A stretch of 64,000 nt of DNA from assembly GCA_958295935.1 (NCBI GenBank), contig OY282385.1:1674001-1738000 (forward strand), in the 5' to 3' direction. Below, piece after piece: positions 9,514-51,294 of the stretch (position 1 is its first letter; each line of letters opens with the position of its first letter). The notes beneath the pieces were generated by a model that saw only the letters and a program-made list of their open reading frames with translations, did not search any database and was not told the origin of the DNA. This DNA comes from an uncultured Dehalococcoidia bacterium. GTDB taxonomy: Bacteria; Chloroflexota; Dehalococcoidia; Lucifugimonadales; Lucifugimonadaceae. The position numbers and the translations under genes were made by a program.

Positions 9514-13431
<3,918 letters not shown>

Positions 13432-41093: not shown

Positions 41094-41381
41094 TCAGCGG
41101 TACTTTACGAGGTACACGCCGTCGGCATCTACGATGTCTTTTGGGGCTTCTCCCAGGGTGAGGATTCGCTGCTCGCCTACGGCTTCAGAGTCCCGCCAGG
41201 TCATCACTATCGAGCCTTGGCGGAGTTCGTAATACCACCGGGCCAGAACATCCCAGATTCTTTCTCGTATCCCATCGGTCATTTGCGGTGCGGTGTACAC
41301 TCCGGGCGCTATTTCCAGCATCGTCGAGGTCAGGAATCCCCGATAGCGGGCGGCCACGTTGACGGTAACGACCACGGTCAT
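41094..41381 (-). CDS. cas2: CRISPR-associated endoribonuclease-fold protein Cas2 (type I-E)
   Basis: 95 residues, the usual size of the I-E branch of Cas2 (CT1978/E. coli type). The N-terminus MTVVVTVNVAARYRGFLTS and the following LEIAPGVYTAP are diagnostic. The centre GIRERIWDVLARWY and the GSIVMTWRD strand follow the family pattern. As the dimer between two Cas1 dimers it forms the spacer-integration complex. No DnaQ domain is fused to it, unlike some I-E Cas2 proteins; a separate DnaQ-like gene is present beyond cas3. It follows cas1 after 21 nt and ends 40 nt before the array. Confidence 0.95.
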   Translation of the reverse strand: MTVVVTVNVAARYRGFLTSTMLEIAPGVYTAPQMTDGIRERIWDVLARWYYELRQGSIVMTWRDSEAVGEQRILTLGEAPKDIVDADGVYLVKYR

Positions 41382-41402: not shown

Positions 41403-42320
41403 TTACTCTCGGGGAGGGGCTTTCCGCCCATCATCGGGGATAACCACATCGGCGAAGAGGGTCTTGATGCGGTCGATCATCCTGGGAATCACGTGCTTGG
41501 TGCGTAGCAATTCCCCGGTGGTGCGCCTGGTGTGCCGCTCGACGTTCAGCGCGGGGTTGTCCATCACGGCCCTGGCCGACTGGAAGGCTGCGGGCAGCAG
41601 GATGGTGTCCCGGAACAGGTCGGCCACGTCGAGGGGAAAAGCCTCTCCGCTGATTTCGTGTATGAAGCCCAGCTGTGGGATTGCGCCGACCGCGGTGACG
41701 GCAATTACAGCGGCCGAAGTGACGGCCACCGAGGCGTGGTTGATGGCCTGATTTGGGATGTCCGCCCACGTCGGGTCGTTTCGGTCGTATCGGCGCCCCT
41801 TCCATGGAATGCCGTAGCGTTGGGCCAGAGTCTTGTAGGTCCGCTTCATGCGTGCGCCTTCGACGCCGCGCAGCGCCGGGAGATTCTGCTGGGGCAGCAC
41901 TTCGCCCAACCTCATGGCATACATCTTCCTGGCTATGGTGATATGGCTTCCATCGGCATCGGCCCATGCCTGCATCTGCTTCCGTGCAATTTCCGACGCG
42001 TCAGGCATCAACGGGGGTGCGGTGTAGCACCTCACGCCGTCCTCGCCTACGGCGACGAGCGCGGTACCGTGGCGCGCCATTAACCGCAAGGCGTCGTGGC
42101 TCACCGTCGATCCCGGTCCTAGCAGGATCATGGACAAGGATTGGAACGGGATGCCGTACTCGCCTGCTTCCAACGAGCTGCCGGCGTCCGGTTTTCCATT
42201 TCGTTCGAAGCGCAGCGTACCGTCTCGCACGGTAAGCGCGCCTCTGGACAGCCACAGGAGCCCGTGCCGATCGGCATGGGGTATCCTGGCGGTCTCCAGT
42301 CCTAAGCGCCCTCTCAGCAT
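41403..42320 (-). CDS. cas1: CRISPR integrase Cas1 (type I-E)
   Basis: 305 residues, typical of I-E Cas1. The metal-binding residues are in view: Glu in ALRGVEGARMKR, His in LGFIHEISGEAF and Asp in FPLDVADLFRD. It catalyses integration of prespacers at the leader-repeat junction together with Cas2. GGGAGA lies 8 nt before the ATG at 42320, supporting this start and independent translation after the mini-array region. The C-terminal tail (VVIPDDGRKAPPRE) is variable, as in other members. Completeness suggests that adaptation is functional, in line with the size of the array. Confidence 0.97.
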   Translation of the reverse strand: MLRGRLGLETARIPHADRHGLLWLSRGALTVRDGTLRFERNGKPDAGSSLEAGEYGIPFQSLSMILLGPGSTVSHDALRLMARHGTALVAVGEDGVRCYTAPPLMPDASEIARKQMQAWADADGSHITIARKMYAMRLGEVLPQQNLPALRGVEGARMKRTYKTLAQRYGIPWKGRRYDRNDPTWADIPNQAINHASVAVTSAAVIAVTAVGAIPQLGFIHEISGEAFPLDVADLFRDTILLPAAFQSARAVMDNPALNVERHTRRTTGELLRTKHVIPRMIDRIKTLFADVVIPDDGRKAPPRE

Positions 42321-42387: not shown

Positions 42388-42475
42388 AACCATACCCCGC
42401 GCGTGCGGGGAACCTCTGCAATCCTGTCCGCTGTAGCTTCTGTGTGCGGTCTGTCCCCGCGTTTGCGGGGAATCG
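42388..42475 (-). CRISPR. Two-repeat mini-array between cas6e and cas1
   Basis: Two degenerate repeats lie 60 nt apart. The left one (42388-42414) holds CCCCGCGCGTGCGGGG, identical to the array stem; the right one (42448-42475) holds GGTCTGTCCCCGCGTTTGCG followed by GGGAAT. The 33 nt between them (42415-42447) is spacer-like. Both are in the same orientation as the main array, so the cas mRNA carries two crRNA-sense hairpins between cas6e and cas1. The flanks read GGTTCC rather than GGCTCC, as in other I-E repeat subtypes. Confidence 0.8.
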
Positions 42476-42512
42476 GGATGAATTATTCAGTTGTTAAGGT
42501 GCAGGAGAGACC

Positions 42513-43271
42513 TCACGCGCGTGCCGGACGCAAGAGCAGCATCCCGTAGCCGTAGGCTCGGTGGCGGCCGATGCCCTGGGCGAGCAGGCCATCGAATGCT
42601 GCGGAGTCCGTGATGGTCAGGACACCCCGCATCACTGCGTCGGGGCCTTGGCTGTGGCGGAGGGCGTGCAGCTTGCGGAAAGCGCGTGTGCGCTGGAAGG
42701 ACACCAGCGTGGTCTTCTCGAAATCAAGTATTGCTGCGCCCTTGCGGTCAAGCCGCCCGGATAGCCACTTGGCGTATACCTCTTCCCGGCTCCGTTTCAT
42801 ACCGCCCTTTTCCGGGTATTGGATGGCCTCGTAGAGGAAGGCGTCACACTCTTTCCTGGGTCGGTCTTTGGCGTTGCGGGTACGGCGCACGATGGGCCGG
42901 ATGCGTACCTCGAATCCGAGGCGTTTACCCGCCGCCAACTGGCGGGGCATCACCTTGCTGTCGATGGTCGAGCCGGGGATGATTCGGGCTTGGAGCGGGT
43001 CGGCGCAGATGGCGACAGACTCTCGCAGGGCGTCGGCATCCGCCTGCCCATACCCGTAGAGGCATCCGGTCGACGCGCCGCGGGGGGTTATCAAGCGGAA
43101 CGGCTTAGGCGCCAGGTTCCCGAAGCACTCGGTCAACAAGCAGTGCATCGCGTGGTCGGGGTCTTGCAGACGTCTCATCCCCATCCAACGTTGAAACTGG
43201 CGCACGTCGACCTCGGCGCGGACCATTTGCAGGGCGGCCGTTTCCGGGGCGGCGTCGGTTGCCATGGTCAT
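42513..43271 (-). CDS. cas6e: CRISPR RNA endonuclease Cas6e (CasE/Cse3)
   Basis: 252 residues. The N-terminal region contains RRLQDPDHAMHCLLTECFG, the D-x-H-x-x-H motif around the catalytic His of Cas6e. The C-terminal glycine-rich loop is GIGRHRAYGYGMLLL, the family signature. It cuts the repeat hairpin to release crRNAs and stays bound as the head of Cascade. Its start overlaps the end of cas5e by 4 nt, indicating translational coupling. Downstream lie two repeat hairpins that it could in principle cut in its own mRNA. Confidence 0.95.
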   Translation of the reverse strand: MTMATDAAPETAALQMVRAEVDVRQFQRWMGMRRLQDPDHAMHCLLTECFGNLAPKPFRLITPRGASTGCLYGYGQADADALRESVAICADPLQARIIPGSTIDSKVMPRQLAAGKRLGFEVRIRPIVRRTRNAKDRPRKECDAFLYEAIQYPEKGGMKRSREEVYAKWLSGRLDRKGAAILDFEKTTLVSFQRTRAFRKLHALRHSQGPDAVMRGVLTITDSAAFDGLLAQGIGRHRAYGYGMLLLRPARA

Positions 43272-44044
43272 GTCTGCTCTTCCTTCTCCGGAGATGCGGC
43301 TTCTACGTCGGAGGCGAACTTATCCCGGTCGATAGCGCCTTGGCATACCCACCGGCCGCCTCCATGAAGACCGGAGATCCAGTTGCGCTGGTCGGTGAGC
43401 ATGTAGGTGCGGCTGGCTTCAATCTCCGGTGAGCCTTCCTCGGCGGGCCATAGGGTCCTCACTGGGTCGCGACTGGGCTTCTCATCCCGCAGGGGATGCG
43501 CCAGGAGCGCGGCCAGCGACGTATCTCCATCCCTGAACCTGGCGAACAGCCGGCTGGAGGGCAGACAAGGCTTGCGTCCGATGAACAGGGGACGCGCCGG
43601 TTCTTGCAGGGCTTCGGCCAGCCTGTCCAGTGTTAGCCCCCCGTCTATCGGCTCCAGTCGGAGGGCGACGGTCACGCGCATGTCGGCGTAGTAGTCGCGG
43701 TAACGCAGGTGTGGGGCATTATAGGTGTTGGCTCCTCCTGCCCGTTCCTCTGGCGCGCCTCTGGTGGTCCAACCCTTGTCCTTGGCGGCCAGTTGTGCGG
43801 TCTGGAAGTCTCGCGTGCTGAGGCCCCCGTGGGGTTCCCGGTCGATGCGGGCGGCGAAGACCATCTGGTCCTGCAGGTCTTGGTGGCGTTGCCGGTCGAC
43901 ACGCCGCCATCCCAGCGCATTTGCGAGCAGTCCGGTGATCATCGACGCCGCGGGAAAGGGTCGTATGACGCCCAGATTGTCGATGGTCTCTCCGCCGAAG
44001 GCCATGAACGGAGATTCCAGATTGATTATCAAGTGCCTGGCCAT
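43268..44044 (-). CDS. cas5: Cascade subunit Cas5e (CasD)
   Basis: 258 residues. The opening MARHLIINLESPFMAFGGET leads into DNLGVIRPFPAASMITGLLA, typical for Cas5e, with LGWRR shortly after. FIGRKPCLPSSRLF is the expected central motif. It binds the 5' handle of the crRNA at the base of Cascade, next to Cse1. It starts 2 nt after cas7e and overlaps cas6e by 4 nt. Confidence 0.95.
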   Translation of the reverse strand: MARHLIINLESPFMAFGGETIDNLGVIRPFPAASMITGLLANALGWRRVDRQRHQDLQDQMVFAARIDREPHGGLSTRDFQTAQLAAKDKGWTTRGAPEERAGGANTYNAPHLRYRDYYADMRVTVALRLEPIDGGLTLDRLAEALQEPARPLFIGRKPCLPSSRLFARFRDGDTSLAALLAHPLRDEKPSRDPVRTLWPAEEGSPEIEASRTYMLTDQRNWISGLHGGGRWVCQGAIDRDKFASDVEAASPEKEEQT

Positions 44045-44046
44045 GG

Positions 44047-45225
44047 TTACACCTTGGCGTTGCGGATGGCGTCAGCCGCCCATACTGCGAGGTCGTCGAG
44101 GCAGAGGCGTTCCGCGTTGGGGATTTCGCAGTCTTCCACGGACATCACCCGTCGGGACCCTTTCATCCCGTAACAGGCGTCTTGATTCCCCATCTCTTTG
44201 CCCAGCGCATCGAGGGCATCCTCAATCTGCGCCGGGACTGGCCTGCGAAAGGCGTCGGCAAGGCTGTACGGCTGGCTGGAACCGGCTTCAATCAGCATGA
44301 ACCTAGCCCGCCCGTAGGGCGCGGTGGAGCCGAGCTTGGCGCCGGGGGACACGGTGGCGATGAGGTGTGTCAGGTGTTCGACGACCTTGGCGGCGAGTTC
44401 CCGGTCCGTGTTCTCCCCGTCCCATTCCTCGGCCTTGCAGCCCTCTAGGTTGGAGACCAGCCCCGGAACGTCGACCACCACGTATCCGTAGAACAGTCCT
44501 GCGGTCAGCTCCATGTCGCCTATGTGTGCGGCCCCGGCGTCTTCTTCGTCGCCTTGCAGGTCATCCACGACGGAGAAGTAGTCGCTTTCGCTCTCCTCGC
44601 GGTGCACTGTGAAGGCGTGGGCGACGTGTATGGCGGCCTCGATGTTTGCGCCGGGGTCTGACGTGATCATGCGCCCGAACAGGGCGCCCTCCAGTCCGGC
44701 GGGCAGGCGGGCCGAATCGAGCAGGGCCCGGAAGTTGTTGCCCTCGCCGCGCCGGGTTTTGAACAGAGCATCCGCGGCCTCGCCGGCGGCCTTGGCGTCG
44801 TTGGGATGGGCGGCGCAGATTTCTGCGGCTCGCTGCTGCAAGTGCTCCACTTCAGGCAAACCCAGGAGCAGGGGCTGCCGTCCGCTCTTGCTCTCACCGC
44901 TGCTTCCGTAGACACCTACGTTGAAGGCTTTTTCCACCGCGTCCAGCACGTCGTCGCTAGTGCCGTTCTTGTCGTTGAGCGGCTGCATTACCATCCGATC
45001 AACGATGTTGCGCGACCTGATGGCCTTCGTGCTGCCCTTGATGCTGTGGATGGCGAAGTCATCCTGGGCGGTGCGCCAGTGCCGCTTGAGGCACTGGGAC
45101 GAGATGCGGGTTCGGACCGCGTCGCCGAATGGCATCCTCTTGGCCAGGCCGCTGTCGTCGCGGTTCAGCAGCGCGGCAGGGTAGGAGTGCAGGGTGTGGA
45201 TTTGCAGGAATCTTGGGGTTGTCAT
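44047..45225 (-). CDS. cas7: Cascade backbone subunit Cas7e (CasC/Cse4)
   Basis: 392 residues. The N-terminus FLQIHTLHSYPAALLNRDDS and the segment GLAKRMPFGDAVRTRISSQC, then LKRHWR, are diagnostic. Six copies of this RRM-fold protein form the Cascade backbone along the crRNA. AYGRARFMLIEAGSSQPYSL near residue 300 is the conserved C-terminal region. Spacing is 2 nt to both the upstream and the downstream gene, so the operon is tightly packed. Confidence 0.96.
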   Translation of the reverse strand: MTTPRFLQIHTLHSYPAALLNRDDSGLAKRMPFGDAVRTRISSQCLKRHWRTAQDDFAIHSIKGSTKAIRSRNIVDRMVMQPLNDKNGTSDDVLDAVEKAFNVGVYGSSGESKSGRQPLLLGLPEVEHLQQRAAEICAAHPNDAKAAGEAADALFKTRRGEGNNFRALLDSARLPAGLEGALFGRMITSDPGANIEAAIHVAHAFTVHREESESDYFSVVDDLQGDEEDAGAAHIGDMELTAGLFYGYVVVDVPGLVSNLEGCKAEEWDGENTDRELAAKVVEHLTHLIATVSPGAKLGSTAPYGRARFMLIEAGSSQPYSLADAFRRPVPAQIEDALDALGKEMGNQDACYGMKGSRRVMSVEDCEIPNAERLCLDDLAVWAADAIRNAKV

Positions 45226-45227
45226 GG

Positions 45228-45851
45228 TTATTCTCCTTGAGCTTCCGATTGTTGTGAGCTGCGCCGCTTCGCTTCGTAATATTTACGGGCGATGTGGCGG
45301 CGGCCCTGTTCGGCCGCGTCTTCGTTGTAACCCTCGTTCAAAATGTATTGGGCCATCTCGCGCCAGTTGAAAGACGCCCCGGATGCGGCGAGCATCCTGA
45401 ACATGCGGGCCAGCAGGGTTCTCAGCATCGGACCCCGGGCGGTCAACAGCCGGTTGAGCCGCGACTCGCTGTAGAAGCCTCTTTCGCCCCGTTGTTGCTC
45501 ACCGCCCAGGAACAGCGCCTGTCCCACAGGAACAGAACCATCGTGGGCGGTAGGCCTATCGCCGTCTCCGCCGGTTGTCGGCGTCATCAGCGCGATGCCG
45601 TGTAGGATGAGTGCCCACTTGTTTTCGATGACGGGGTTGCCCAGCAGTTTGTAGTGCGCCAACAGCCGCCAGAAGGCCGCCGCGTCTGGCTCGTCGGGGT
45701 CCATCCGCCGCAACTCGGCCAAGTCGCCGCGGCCATGGTCGGCAAGCCGAGCTATGCTACGAGCCAAGCTCACCGTTGTATCACCCCAAGATTGCGGCCG
45801 CCCGCGCTGTTCCTGAGCGTCGGGCGATTGTGCAAATTCCGTAGTGGTCAC
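45228..45851 (-). CDS. cse2: Cascade small subunit Cse2 (CasB)
   Basis: 207 residues, mostly alpha-helical, as expected for the Cse2 dimer that stabilises the displaced strand in Cascade. ELRRMDPDEPDAAAFWRLLA and the later LNRLLTARGPMLRTLLARM segments are recognisable, and the C-terminal half carries WREMAQYILN. Its start overlaps the cse1 stop by 4 nt. Residues 1-30 are variable. Confidence 0.92.
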   Translation of the reverse strand: MTTTEFAQSPDAQEQRGRPQSWGDTTVSLARSIARLADHGRGDLAELRRMDPDEPDAAAFWRLLAHYKLLGNPVIENKWALILHGIALMTPTTGGDGDRPTAHDGSVPVGQALFLGGEQQRGERGFYSESRLNRLLTARGPMLRTLLARMFRMLAASGASFNWREMAQYILNEGYNEDAAEQGRRHIARKYYEAKRRSSQQSEAQGE

Positions 45852-47458
45852 TCTTTGACCTCCTCATTACTTTCTGGAAACAGATCCGGCAAACCCTTCG
45901 GCCCGCGCAACCGCCCACCGAACAGCCCTTCGGCATTGACTCGCGCCTTGTACCGGTATATGGCCGGACAGGGCAGCGAGTCCGTGGCATCACGAAGCAA
46001 GGCGCGGGCGTGGTTCACTACGCCGCTTTTGTCCTTATCGTCAAGCAGCCATCGGTCGCGGATGCCCTGCCGCTGACTCTCCGGGGCCTCGAATTCGTCC
46101 TGAAGGTTGTCGAAAAAGGTGTTGTCCACGATTTCGTCCAGCCGATTCAGCCATTTGCGGGCGCGCTCCCGGTGTTCGGGGCTGGTGTTCTCGGCGTCGC
46201 CCCGGGCGGCGAAAACCTGAATGGCATGGCTTAATATGCGCTGGACTATACCGACGTCACCTATTCTTGCCTTGGCGATGGCGCCCAAGTCGTCCAAGTC
46301 ACTGGAATTGCGCCCCAGCATCGCTAATTTCAGTTTGTTTCTGACCGGTATGGTGCGCTCGTAGTAGCCTTCCGTCTTGCCCTGTCCGCGCACCATCGCT
46401 CGGGCCACCAGTCGCATAGGTTCGGTGTCACCCTGCTCGGTCTTGGTTGGCTTGAGCAAGGCGGGATGAATCCAATCGGCCGAGGTCAGGTAATCGGCAA
46501 TCCGCTTGTACGTGAAACCGCCGGCGCTCAGGGTTAACGGCAAGCCATCTCTTTTACCGTTGGTGGGCGTCCAAGGGTCTCCGGTGCGGCCTTTAAGGTG
46601 CTTTCCGTCCATCCGGGCCGCTTTGGAACTGGTGCGGATTCCGTAGAGTGTTCGGTTGTCTCCGGTACGCAGTCGTATGCGGCGGCAGACCTCGACGTAT
46701 AGGGGGTCGAGATTATTCGGCTGCAGGAACTCGTTCTTTGTTCCATCCCACGGCAACGTCCATAGCAGAGTTGCGCCGCCGTTGTCCGGGTAGTGTGGGT
46801 TTTCGTCCAGGATTTTCGGTCGGAGTTCCAGCAGCGCCTTGATATCGCGCTGGACGTGGGCACCGGTACCTCCACGGGAGGGCGCAAGAGAAAACGCGGG
46901 GCGGTTGCCGAGGCCGCCGTTCATGCGGGAGACGCCGTAATTCCCGGCTCCACCGAACCCTTCCATGGTTTGCAGGGTAATCAGGGCGAACATCCAGTCG
47001 TCGTTGTGGGACTGGGCGGCCACTGCCGATTTAAGGTCGTGGTTCTTGGACGTGACCAGCATATCCAGTTCGTCGGGGGTTTCTACCCTGTTTTTGTAGT
47101 CCTTCTTGCGGTCCTTGGAGGAGGCGGGCGGCTGCATGAAGGCGGGCCTCGTGATGTCGTCCACCACCAACTCCCACGGCTCGTCGCCAGGGAAATCCTT
47201 TATGGTGAGGCCGCGGAGGAGGTCGGCCCATTCCCTGGAGGTCGTGGGCGGTTCCTCGAGGCCGGCCCGGTGGATGGCCATCGTGCCCATAAGGGCCAGA
47301 CAGGCGTGCCAGGCGTGTCGCTGGTGGGGGCGCAGGGCAGGAAACGCTTCAACCTCGTCGGCCATCAGCGCGGCGTAAACTTCGGGCAGGGACGCATCAA
47401 CGCGCCTGCCCTCGGACTGGTCGAATCGTATCAGGGGATCTGTGAGGAGATTATGCAC
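45848..47458 (-). CDS. cse1: Cascade large subunit Cse1 (CasA)
   Basis: 536 residues, typical of Cse1. The N-terminus NLLTDPLIRFDQSEGRRV and the following LPEVYAALMADEVEAFPALR are family signatures, as is RPHQRHAWHACL. The middle holds the expected KSAVAAQSHNDDW and GYGVSRMNGG-like segment (here NYGVSRMNGGLGNRP). Cse1 recognises the PAM and recruits Cas3. It is the first gene of the tight Cascade cluster; an approximately 420-bp region separates it from cas3. Confidence 0.95.
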   Translation of the reverse strand: MHNLLTDPLIRFDQSEGRRVDASLPEVYAALMADEVEAFPALRPHQRHAWHACLALMGTMAIHRAGLEEPPTTSREWADLLRGLTIKDFPGDEPWELVVDDITRPAFMQPPASSKDRKKDYKNRVETPDELDMLVTSKNHDLKSAVAAQSHNDDWMFALITLQTMEGFGGAGNYGVSRMNGGLGNRPAFSLAPSRGGTGAHVQRDIKALLELRPKILDENPHYPDNGGATLLWTLPWDGTKNEFLQPNNLDPLYVEVCRRIRLRTGDNRTLYGIRTSSKAARMDGKHLKGRTGDPWTPTNGKRDGLPLTLSAGGFTYKRIADYLTSADWIHPALLKPTKTEQGDTEPMRLVARAMVRGQGKTEGYYERTIPVRNKLKLAMLGRNSSDLDDLGAIAKARIGDVGIVQRILSHAIQVFAARGDAENTSPEHRERARKWLNRLDEIVDNTFFDNLQDEFEAPESQRQGIRDRWLLDDKDKSGVVNHARALLRDATDSLPCPAIYRYKARVNAEGLFGGRLRGPKGLPDLFPESNEEVKE

Positions 47459-47549
47459 TGGAGTCTCGTCTCCACCAGTGATGGATGGGTTAGGAAGAAC
47501 CGAGCTTTGTGACTGTATCTTTTTCTCTGAGGTAGGGCCAAGCCGGTTG

Positions 47550-47748
<199 letters not shown>

Positions 47749-47846
47749 GTTTTTTTGGTCTTGCTCGGCTGATATTAGCATAACACTTATGTATGGTACA
47801 GGGAAACCCCTTCCTTAATCAAGTCTCTGGGTCGGATCGTTCTAAG

Positions 47847-47936
47847 GATTCCCCCACTACCGTGGGGATAGGCCCTGTTACGCTAACATGCCATGCGCGC
47901 GAGCGCGAGGTTCCCCCGCACACGCGGGGATAGACG
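47847..47936 (+). CRISPR. Two-repeat mini-array at the 3' end of cas3
   Basis: Repeat 1 (47847-47874) and repeat 2 (47909-47936) lie 62 nt apart with a 34-nt spacer. Repeat 2 matches the crRNA-sense consensus at 25 of 28 positions (TTCCCCCGCACACGCGGGGA core). Repeat 1 matches at about 20, and its stem change CCCCA/TGGGG is compensatory. Both are in crRNA-sense orientation on the plus strand, opposite to the main array. The cas3 stop codon (47878-47880) falls inside the spacer. Confidence 0.8.
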
Positions 47937-50628
47937 ACGGGCCTACGCCGGGAGGAGTAAGCCGGCGTAGGCCATGGCGGTCGTATAGGAAGGCGCGGTC
48001 GCTGACTGTGAAGGTGAAACCGTTTTTGATGGGATCCGTCGTGACCGTGTCTTCGGCAGCGACTCCCCGAAGCAGATGTGCGGGTATCGTCATAGCCTCG
48101 ATGAATGGCGACAGGCCGAAGGGGCTGGGGCGCGGCGAGTCGAACTTGACCTCGATGCCCTCTTCGCCCAGGCGGGTGCGGATGCGCTCCTCGTCGGAGG
48201 GGAACAGTATGTCGTCGTTGTCGGTGAAGAAGGACTTGTCGCGGCGGATAACGGCGCTAGCGGCGGTCAGTCCATCGGCCAGATCCTCGCCCGTGACGTC
48301 GTTTGCGTGGCCTTGCCAGTCTTCGCCCATTTCCTGAACGATGGCCTCCAGTCTGTCGGGGTGAGTGGCCTCTTCCACTAGCTTCCGGTTCATTCCTGGG
48401 ATGTCCCACTGTGGGAATTTGGCTATCAGCCGCCGTGTGGCTTGGAGGACGCGCAGATCCTTGTAGACGTGGCCTTTGGGGCCGAGGCCGGTGGCGCGGC
48501 TGCTTTGCAGCAGGGGCGAGAGGTCTTGAGAGTTCGGCGTGAGCACGATGCAGGCGGGGGTCTCGTAGCCCGCGGGCCTGCTGTCTCTTTGGTGTCGGTG
48601 CAGTCGTCCGATGCGTTGCAGCAGCACGTCCACGGGGCAGAGGTCGGTTATCAGCAGGTCGGCGTCTATGTCCAGGGACTGTTCCAGTGTCTGGGTTCCC
48701 ACCACTATGAGGGCCCCGGGTGGGGCGTCCTTGCCGAGCCGTTTTTCCACCTCGTCGTCGAGTGCGCGGCGGTCGTCTGCGGCGAACCGGCTGTGATGCG
48801 GCGCGGCCATTCCGTTGAGCGAGAACAACAGGCGATTGTCATCTCCGGCGGCCTGTTCGAGGGACTTCTGCGTACTGATGGCGTTGCTGACGGTGTTGCG
48901 GATGACCAGGGTCCTGGCCCCGGCCCGGGCTGCCTGCAGCGCCAGAGCCGCGATCCTGTCGGAGTCGTGGATAATCGGCTGGGCGGAGATGTTTACGTTC
49001 TTCCGCTGTCGGTTTTCGCCCGCGGCGGAGACGCTCTCTCCGTTTGTGGCTCTGACGCTGACGGCCGGGTATGGGGATTGGATGGCTTCGTCTAGCTGCG
49101 GTGCATCGTTGGGATTCAAACGTGCGGCGGCCAGCCACTGCCGCCGTGCTACCGAGCCGAGGGTGGCGGACATGAGCAGGGCGTAGCCGCCTGCGCCGAG
49201 GTGGGCATCCAGCAGGGCCTTGATGATGCGGCGCATGTGGGCGTCGGATGCGTGTACTTCGTCGACCACCAGCAGGTTGCGGGACAGGCAGGCGGCGCGC
49301 ATGTGGGCGTGTTTCACTTTGAGGGCTGCCATCATTGCCTGGTCGACGGTTCCGACGGCTATTTGCGCTGCGAGGTAGCGCTTCGAGCTTTCGGCGGCCC
49401 AGCGGCGGCTGCAGGTGGCGTCGTCGGGACCGTCGTCCCACCCGACCTCGTAGTCTTGCAGGTGACGTCCGCTGATGTCCCCGGCCTTGACGTAGCCCGG
49501 CACGGCCAGCACAGGCTCGGGCCGCTGGTCAGCAGGGAACATGCGCTTCACGAAGCTAGTTACCCTTGTGTGGAGTTGGCTGGCGGCGGCGCGGGTAGGT
49601 AGGGCGAAGTAGAGGCCGTCCACCAGTCTTGCGTCGTACATGCGGGCGAACCGCGACAGGGCGGCCTCGGTCTTGCCGGAGCCGGTTTCGGACTCGATGA
49701 TGACCAGCGGTTCATGGAGGGGGGTTTCGGTCGCGGCCTGCTGGATGGCGTTGGGGGTGAAACCGAAGAGGGCGGGAAAGTCTGGCAACCCGTTGGCCAA
49801 TACGTCTCGCTGTTTTTCCAGGTTCAGGCCGATTTTGGCGACCGCGTCCCTGGCCCGTTGCCGCGCCTCGGCTATGTAGTCGTCGCGAGGCTCATCGCAG
49901 AAGGGGAACCATTTTTCGTTCGAGCCGATCCAGTCTGCCAGGGTGCACAGGCCGAGGAAGTGGTGCTGAAACTCCGGAGACGACGGCAGGGGCGGCGCGC
50001 GGTCGGTGAAAGCTCTTGGGAACCACTGGCGGGCGAGTTCTCCGATGCGGCGGACGTGTTCTCGAGGTCGCAAGTTGCGGTAGTTGCTCCAGAGCCTTGA
50101 ATTGGAGGATAGCCCCCCTTCCAACTGCAAGGGCTGACCGTGGTGCGAAAGCGTAGCGATGAACAAGGCGCATATGGTCTCGCCCTGACGGTCGTCCCAT
50201 GAGTCGGTAGCGTCCCACCACCATCCCAGGCTTTCAAGAAACCATTCCGTGGTCGCGCGGTCGTGGCCCGTCAACACCGGGGTCAGTTCTCGGTAGTGTC
50301 CGGCGGGGCCCGGGCCGCGCATTCCGTCTGGAAAGTCGTCGTTTAGCCATACTTGGGTCTGGAAGCCTATGTTGACTTTGCCGACGTCGTGCATGGCGGC
50401 GAAGAGGGCGAGGCGCGCGGCCGTGGCGTCGTGCAGGTCGTCGCGGCCGCCGGAGCGCGCCAGCCGCTGGCGGATTGTGGGCTGGTTCAGCAGGGCCTCG
50501 AAGCAGGCGCCTACGTCGGCCAGGTGACACTCCAGCAGGTGGATGCGCTCAGGCCCCCGCTGGCGGTATGGCTGAGCCTTGGCCCAGAATTTGCGGGTGT
50601 AGTCGGCTCTGACCGTGTTACCTGACAT
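47878..50628 (-). CDS. cas3: CRISPR nuclease-helicase Cas3 with a repeat-encoded C-terminus
   Basis: 916 residues. The N-terminal HD nuclease has LECHLADVG and FAAMHDVGKVNIGFQ. The superfamily 2 helicase has Walker A ESETGSGKTEAAL, the DEVH box in LLVVDEVHASDAHM, motif III LLMSATLGS, and motifs V-VI in GTQTLEQSLDIDADLL and LLQRIGRLHRH. It unwinds and degrades the DNA strand exposed by Cascade. GGAGGA precedes the ATG at 50628. The last 20 or so codons (PSSIPACAGEPRARAHGMLA) translate the antisense of a CRISPR repeat and part of its spacer, so the natural end was probably near GLRRLTPPGV. Whether the tail matters is unknown. Confidence 0.96.
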   Translation of the reverse strand: MSGNTVRADYTRKFWAKAQPYRQRGPERIHLLECHLADVGACFEALLNQPTIRQRLARSGGRDDLHDATAARLALFAAMHDVGKVNIGFQTQVWLNDDFPDGMRGPGPAGHYRELTPVLTGHDRATTEWFLESLGWWWDATDSWDDRQGETICALFIATLSHHGQPLQLEGGLSSNSRLWSNYRNLRPREHVRRIGELARQWFPRAFTDRAPPLPSSPEFQHHFLGLCTLADWIGSNEKWFPFCDEPRDDYIAEARQRARDAVAKIGLNLEKQRDVLANGLPDFPALFGFTPNAIQQAATETPLHEPLVIIESETGSGKTEAALSRFARMYDARLVDGLYFALPTRAAASQLHTRVTSFVKRMFPADQRPEPVLAVPGYVKAGDISGRHLQDYEVGWDDGPDDATCSRRWAAESSKRYLAAQIAVGTVDQAMMAALKVKHAHMRAACLSRNLLVVDEVHASDAHMRRIIKALLDAHLGAGGYALLMSATLGSVARRQWLAAARLNPNDAPQLDEAIQSPYPAVSVRATNGESVSAAGENRQRKNVNISAQPIIHDSDRIAALALQAARAGARTLVIRNTVSNAISTQKSLEQAAGDDNRLLFSLNGMAAPHHSRFAADDRRALDDEVEKRLGKDAPPGALIVVGTQTLEQSLDIDADLLITDLCPVDVLLQRIGRLHRHQRDSRPAGYETPACIVLTPNSQDLSPLLQSSRATGLGPKGHVYKDLRVLQATRRLIAKFPQWDIPGMNRKLVEEATHPDRLEAIVQEMGEDWQGHANDVTGEDLADGLTAASAVIRRDKSFFTDNDDILFPSDEERIRTRLGEEGIEVKFDSPRPSPFGLSPFIEAMTIPAHLLRGVAAEDTVTTDPIKNGFTFTVSDRAFLYDRHGLRRLTPPGVGPSSIPACAGEPRARAHGMLA

Positions 50629-51294
<666 letters not shown>

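Follow-up and report, generated by a model that had tools for sequence, protein, structure and literature searches.

Shmakov et al. 2023 are said to have described standalone repeats and mini-arrays that are conserved among related CRISPR-cas loci and to have read them as guides, and so far standalone repeats in cas loci have been interpreted mainly as guide RNAs. Liu et al. 2023 reportedly found that CreR RNAs, or modulatory mini-CRISPRs, act in autorepression of type I-B, I-E and V-A systems, and according to what is reported of Stringer et al. 2020, boxA guards CRISPR arrays against early termination. CreR behaviour and modulatory mini-CRISPRs are reviewed in PMC12737573 and PMC13131331, which describe two degenerate repeats flanking one spacer within the cas locus. 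The CreA antitoxin genes of CreTA (PMC8501985) have two divergent repeats in which the Cas6-critical positions are kept, and a seed comprising guide positions 1-5 and 7-11. Antitermination of CRISPR arrays by boxA is described in PMC7862264. Each of these three elements is already known by itself, CreR and standalone repeats as well as the boxA of arrays; what is new at the locus described here is their combination, together with conservation of the repeat stem only. Cutting of cas mRNA by Cas6 at an internal repeat was not found in the open literature, as judged by titles and the beginnings of abstracts, with subscription papers mostly outside this search.

The window, that is, the whole stretch of 64,000 nucleotides that was analysed, carries on its minus strand a complete type I-E locus comprising cas3, cse1, cse2, cas7, cas5, cas6e, cas1 and cas2 (NCBIfam gene calls), in a genome assembly of 2.75 Mb. 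The nearest public relatives of the locus are metagenome-assembled genomes of Dehalococcoidia/SAR202 and other Chloroflexota, and Cas6e is present in one of 76 family-level relative genomes. The repeat of the main array is GGCTCCCCCGCACGCGCGGGGATAGACC, 28 nt long, with a period of 61; almost all of the 342 repeats are identical, and merely about 40 nt separate cas2 from the first of them. Two degenerate copies of this repeat, psiR1 and psiR2, lie in the 192-bp gap between cas6e and cas1, in crRNA sense and in the same orientation as the cas genes and the array:

43268 to 50628, minus strand: the rest of the cas operon (cas3, cse1, cse2, cas7, cas5; NCBIfam)
42513 to 43271, minus strand: cas6e (TIGR01907), with its stop at 42513
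42484 to 42502, minus strand: predicted boxA-type antitermination element GCACCTTAACAACTGAATA, immediately upstream of psiR1
42448 to 42475, minus strand: psiR1, degenerate repeat with 6/28 mismatches, intact stem, loop AAAC and handle ACAGACC
42416 to 42447, minus strand: spacer-like stretch of 32 nt between psiR1 and psiR2; with a handle of 8 nt, the predicted guide spans 42416-42446
42388 to 42415, minus strand: psiR2, degenerate repeat with 9/28 mismatches, both stem and loop preserved, handle gone
41403 to 42320, minus strand: cas1 (TIGR03638), with its start at 42320
41094 to 41381, minus strand: cas2 (TIGR01873)
20196 to 41053, minus strand: main CRISPR array of 342 repeats, about 40 nt past cas2 and without a boxA of its own

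Alignment and shuffling confirm the core of the original prediction, two degenerate repeats 60 nt apart, in crRNA sense on the operon strand, between cas6e and cas1. The start-to-start distance of 60 nt corresponds to one repeat-spacer unit (the array period being 61). In 5000 dinucleotide shuffles of the gap, a match with at most six mismatches never arose and one with at most nine arose 12 times, and because none of the 5000 reproduced a repeat pair 58-64 apart, the pair is not due to chance. The 6-bp stem of the array, CCCCGC/GCGGGG in transcript sense, is identical in psiR1 and psiR2, so stem pairing is kept in both, as predicted; the claim that the loop had diverged holds for psiR1 (AAAC versus the ACGC of the array) but not for psiR2, which has the same loop as the array. 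The handle of psiR1 differs from that of the array by one change. Structure prediction for the gap RNA yields both hairpins, although overall this RNA is not unusually structured (z -1.23), and a scan of the cas6e-cas1 gap for sigma-70 promoters found none. The hairpins thus present the array stem-loop in transcript sense, and cutting by the cognate Cas6e is predicted. That Cas6e is full length and profile-matched; its His43, which we take to be catalytic, is invariant in 17/17 homologues, and a profile search of the PDB found a match where a single-sequence search of the PDB gave none.

Aligning the gap with those of relatives revealed a 19-nt motif, GCACCTTAACAAYYGAATA, just 5' of psiR1. In this genome its 16-nt core has an exact copy before 16S rRNA and a one-mismatch copy before 23S (rRNA recognised by eye), and since the core recurs directly before these rRNA genes we identify the motif as boxA, here predicted to be a Nus-dependent antitermination signal. 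A reading of the motif as a cas1 promoter with TTAACA as its -35 was dropped once it had been found before 16S and 23S rRNA. A weight matrix built from 25 of the 27 gaps finds boxA again in the array leaders (the cas2-array interval) of more distant I-E loci, and a boxA-like motif was also seen by eye in L017 and, about 153 bp ahead of the first repeat, at the second array in L060. The strict core occurs in 18/26 cas6e-cas1 gaps of the clade versus 0/48 of the outgroup, and in 1/20 readable array leaders of the clade versus 28/43 of the outgroup; shuffled sequences give it in 1-2%. These counts refer to a clade of 26 loci, to which the sets of 27 gaps add L115, with a cas1 of another kind and a gap of 10 nt. 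Therefore, boxA in the clade lies upstream of cas1-cas2, and scant leader (median 48 nt) is left between cas2 and the array. As in the arrays treated in PMC7862264, boxA is found upstream of the array, and the motif is the boxA of the genome's own rRNA; unlike there, it precedes cas1-cas2 rather than lying between cas2 and array, and repeat hairpins follow it.

Between cas3 and cse1 the operon harbours a second mini-CRISPR, which, like the boxA, the original prediction had overlooked; from its sequence it is a textbook CreR candidate and appears to behave like CreR:

47847 to 47936, plus strand: second mini-CRISPR, CreR candidate, antisense to the cas operon; repeats at 47847-47874 and 47909-47936, guide from 47876
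47775 to 47788, minus strand: predicted CreR target, AAG followed by TGTTATGCTAA, upstream of cse1

The distal repeat overlaps the cas3 end. After an 8-nt handle the guide reads TGTTACGCTAA, and at 47785 the operon strand has a site beside AAG that matches 10/10 seed positions, the seed being defined by the rule in PMC8501985. In relatives, too, targets co-evolve with the element. Seven of the 18 clade loci with a cas3-cse1 repeat have an operon-strand target that, at the 8-nt handle, lies next to an AAN PAM and matches the seed at 9/10 positions or more, and the same scan gave 0 at 20 other offsets and on the other strand. The repeat stems of 11 loci covary, with 5/6 pairs changed on both sides (0/500 shuffles), and the handle is kept (6/77 changes); this alignment, A3, takes the first repeats of 11 of the 18 loci and leaves out L058, L060, L066, L067, L076, L077 and L078, where there are arrays or single distal repeats. 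Scans of the cas3-cse1 gap for intrinsic terminators and sigma-70 promoters found none, and because of the latter the promoter under the CreR target is placed by position alone. In every respect that could be tested, the cas3-cse1 element fits CreR as PMC12737573 and PMC13131331 describe it. The gap pair, in contrast, is on the operon strand, lacks a promoter-like target, and in relatives keeps the stem and not the handle. It resembles the CreA genes in its two divergent repeats with Cas6-critical positions kept, and differs from them in that neither a toxin gene nor a seed target was identified.

Is the hairpin between cas6e and cas1 conserved in relatives, as the original prediction would have it? 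In part it is. An operon-sense repeat hairpin, intact or nearly so, is found in the gap of 10/27 loci (12 hairpins), including all four loci of the nearest subclade (the window, L055, L056 and L057), and is missing in the other 17/27, the counts ranging from none to two. On the Cas1 tree its presence requires 4 changes, a number as low in only 1/500 label shuffles. Compared with the clade repeat, the nearest subclade shows 0/60 stem changes and 18/35 handle changes, and the handle is lost in L055, L056 and L057. At the four-fold-degenerate sites of six cas genes, the window shows an identity of 0.69 with L055 but only 0.46 with L056 and 0.47 with L057; provided that these sites measure neutral change fairly, the probability that 12 stem bases stay unchanged is about 1e-4 in either of the two distant comparisons. 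Beyond the nearest subclade the stem counts are biased because the gap hairpins there were detected by their stem, while the four-locus count is free of this bias. The same detection bias enters the comparison of A3 with alignment A4 (Fisher p 9.5e-7), which holds 11 of the 12 gap hairpins, that of L063 being left out as identical to that of L062. No covariation was found among the gap hairpins. The loop AAAC is common to psiR1, L055 and L057 yet unlike the array loops of both the window (ACGC) and L055 (ACAC), which argues for inheritance and against recent copying or re-seeding from the array. The 3' end of the hairpin lies 14-34 nt upstream of the cas1 start in six loci. As L055 has a single hairpin, the two-repeat layout is not conserved; by alignment its 5' flank is psiR1-like and its 3' flank psiR2-like, a point on which ungapped flank counts are not clear. 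Other operon-sense degenerate repeats between cas genes occur in L064 (cas7-cas5) and in L088, an added comparison locus (cas3-cse1).

Taken together, these results suggest that the decayed repeats are kept as Cas6e cutting or binding sites rather than as guides. We tentatively favour, at somewhat less than an even chance, the explanation that the hairpins are maintained Cas6e sites in the operon mRNA, placed after boxA and before cas1 and separating Cascade from cas1-cas2 and the array. A Cas6e site fits better than a guide because the stem is kept and the handle lost, the hairpin is in transcript sense, and it follows boxA and precedes cas1 by 14-34 nt, a spacing that would be expected of a cut site ahead of the cas1 ribosome site. 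Here too the elements recall the standalone repeats attributed to Shmakov et al. 2023, reportedly also repeat-like and conserved in related CRISPR-cas loci, with the difference that at this locus the guide part decays while the Cas6e hairpin stays. They probably derive from an earlier array with a boxA leader, of which they would have been the first repeats.

This origin is shared with the main rival, a decaying relic, already an alternative in the original prediction: a boxA-leader array would once have stood between cas6e and cas1, its boxA surviving because cas1-cas2 and the array still have to be transcribed, its repeats now disappearing. The relic explains the origin well, and it owes its standing as main rival to the 17/27 gaps that have no hairpin and to the variation among the rest; it also accounts for boxA in the array leaders of outgroup loci, for repeat counts from none to two across gaps, for the two good repeats that L064 retains around an insertion, and for L055, which resembles a recombination product between psiR1 and psiR2. 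On the other hand, the stems are unchanged in 4/4 subclade loci at near-saturated silent divergence, whereas handles and flanks are scrambled, and on balance we regard the relic as a serious though unlikely account. Gene conversion from the array could alternatively have kept the stems alike. It is quite improbable that Cas6e makes a crRNA-like RNA from the gap pair, which Cascade then takes to a promoter in the manner of CreR. The two repeats, the 32-nt spacer, the psiR1 handle with its one change and the presence of a true CreR candidate in the same operon speak for such a guide. Against it, the best AAN-flanked target in the window reaches 8/10 seed positions and none reaches 9/10, searching the window with any PAM, and likewise the genome, gives chance-like matches only, and exact AANCACACNGAAGC has 0 matches in the genome; moreover, when the 10 loci with a hairpin were scanned for guide targets, a handle length of 8 gave one match, which several other lengths equalled or exceeded. 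The gap pair was accordingly rejected as a CreR guide, there being no cas promoter target with seed and PAM in window or genome and no conservation of the handle in relatives. A search for a phage or viral origin of the gap spacer gave no match.

There are two further alternatives. In the lambda nut site, boxB works with the Nus complex just after boxA, and by analogy the hairpin might be a structural part of the antitermination signal, independent of Cas6e. In the window, L055, L056, L057 and L090 it does come 6-13 nt after boxA, but it is farther off in L062-L064, L072 and L076 and missing in 17/27 gaps, and the boxA copies before 16S and 23S are not followed by this hairpin, which leaves this explanation very improbable. 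The original prediction had also offered partial terminators, as GC-rich hairpins between two functional operon halves might invite. This alternative is disfavoured, its chance being close to negligible: a T tract is absent, and the gap has 0 terminator-like sites versus a shuffled mean of 0.2. The proposal of a Cas6e site, to which it had been an alternative, is supported in part, by the hairpins in relatives, by stems kept where handles are lost, and by their place before cas1.

If the hairpins are indeed Cas6e sites, transcription from upstream of cse1 would pass through cas6e, the Nus complex would load at boxA, and a single transcript would go on via cas1-cas2 into the array. Cas6e would cut at the 3' base of the hairpin, leaving a Cascade mRNA that ends in a hairpin capped by Cas6e and releasing a cas1-cas2 RNA closed at its other end by the first array repeat; the level of cas1-cas2 may change in consequence, giving the feedback on adaptation that had been envisaged. 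That 17/27 gaps lack a hairpin shows that an operon of this layout can do without it. A bolder version, which we consider rather improbable, holds that with the shift of boxA to a place ahead of cas1 a single antiterminated transcript came to span cas1-cas2 and the array, with repeats on either side; a Cas6e cut just after boxA would then release the cas1-cas2 mRNA as if it were a giant spacer, sever the boxA tether from RNA polymerase and set how far transcription reaches into the 342-repeat array. If this were true, free Cas6e would tune adaptation and pre-crRNA supply post-transcriptionally, alongside a CreR loop on the cse1 promoter. More generally, if a repeat is maintained solely for its Cas6e hairpin, the enzyme that processes crRNA would itself control spacer acquisition at the post-transcriptional level, from a site between interference and adaptation genes and beside boxA. 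Relatives with no, one or two hairpins are natural variants that make the idea of a Cas6e site directly testable.

Several further features of these loci were seen. L139 has a second array (10058-12770; G000:C1 about 2105057-2107769) with 25 matching, somewhat degenerate repeats, and boxA is absent from the 300 bp upstream of it. Ectopic arrays occur in L058 (3736-4433; 12 repeats, antisense, in the cas3-cse1 interval) and in L064 (7313-7584; 5 repeats, operon sense, in the cas7-cas5 interval). A DEDDh exonuclease gene (PF00929) lies beside cas3 at 50755-51294 on the plus strand, and a fragment that by eye resembles the start of this same gene lies upstream of cse1 at 47560-47740 on the minus strand. 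After the distal CreR repeat, at 47937-47975 on the plus strand, comes a strong, GC-rich inverted repeat that may terminate transcription in both directions, from cas3 and from the CreR unit, and the like is seen at the same place in L061, L067, L070, L078 and L090.
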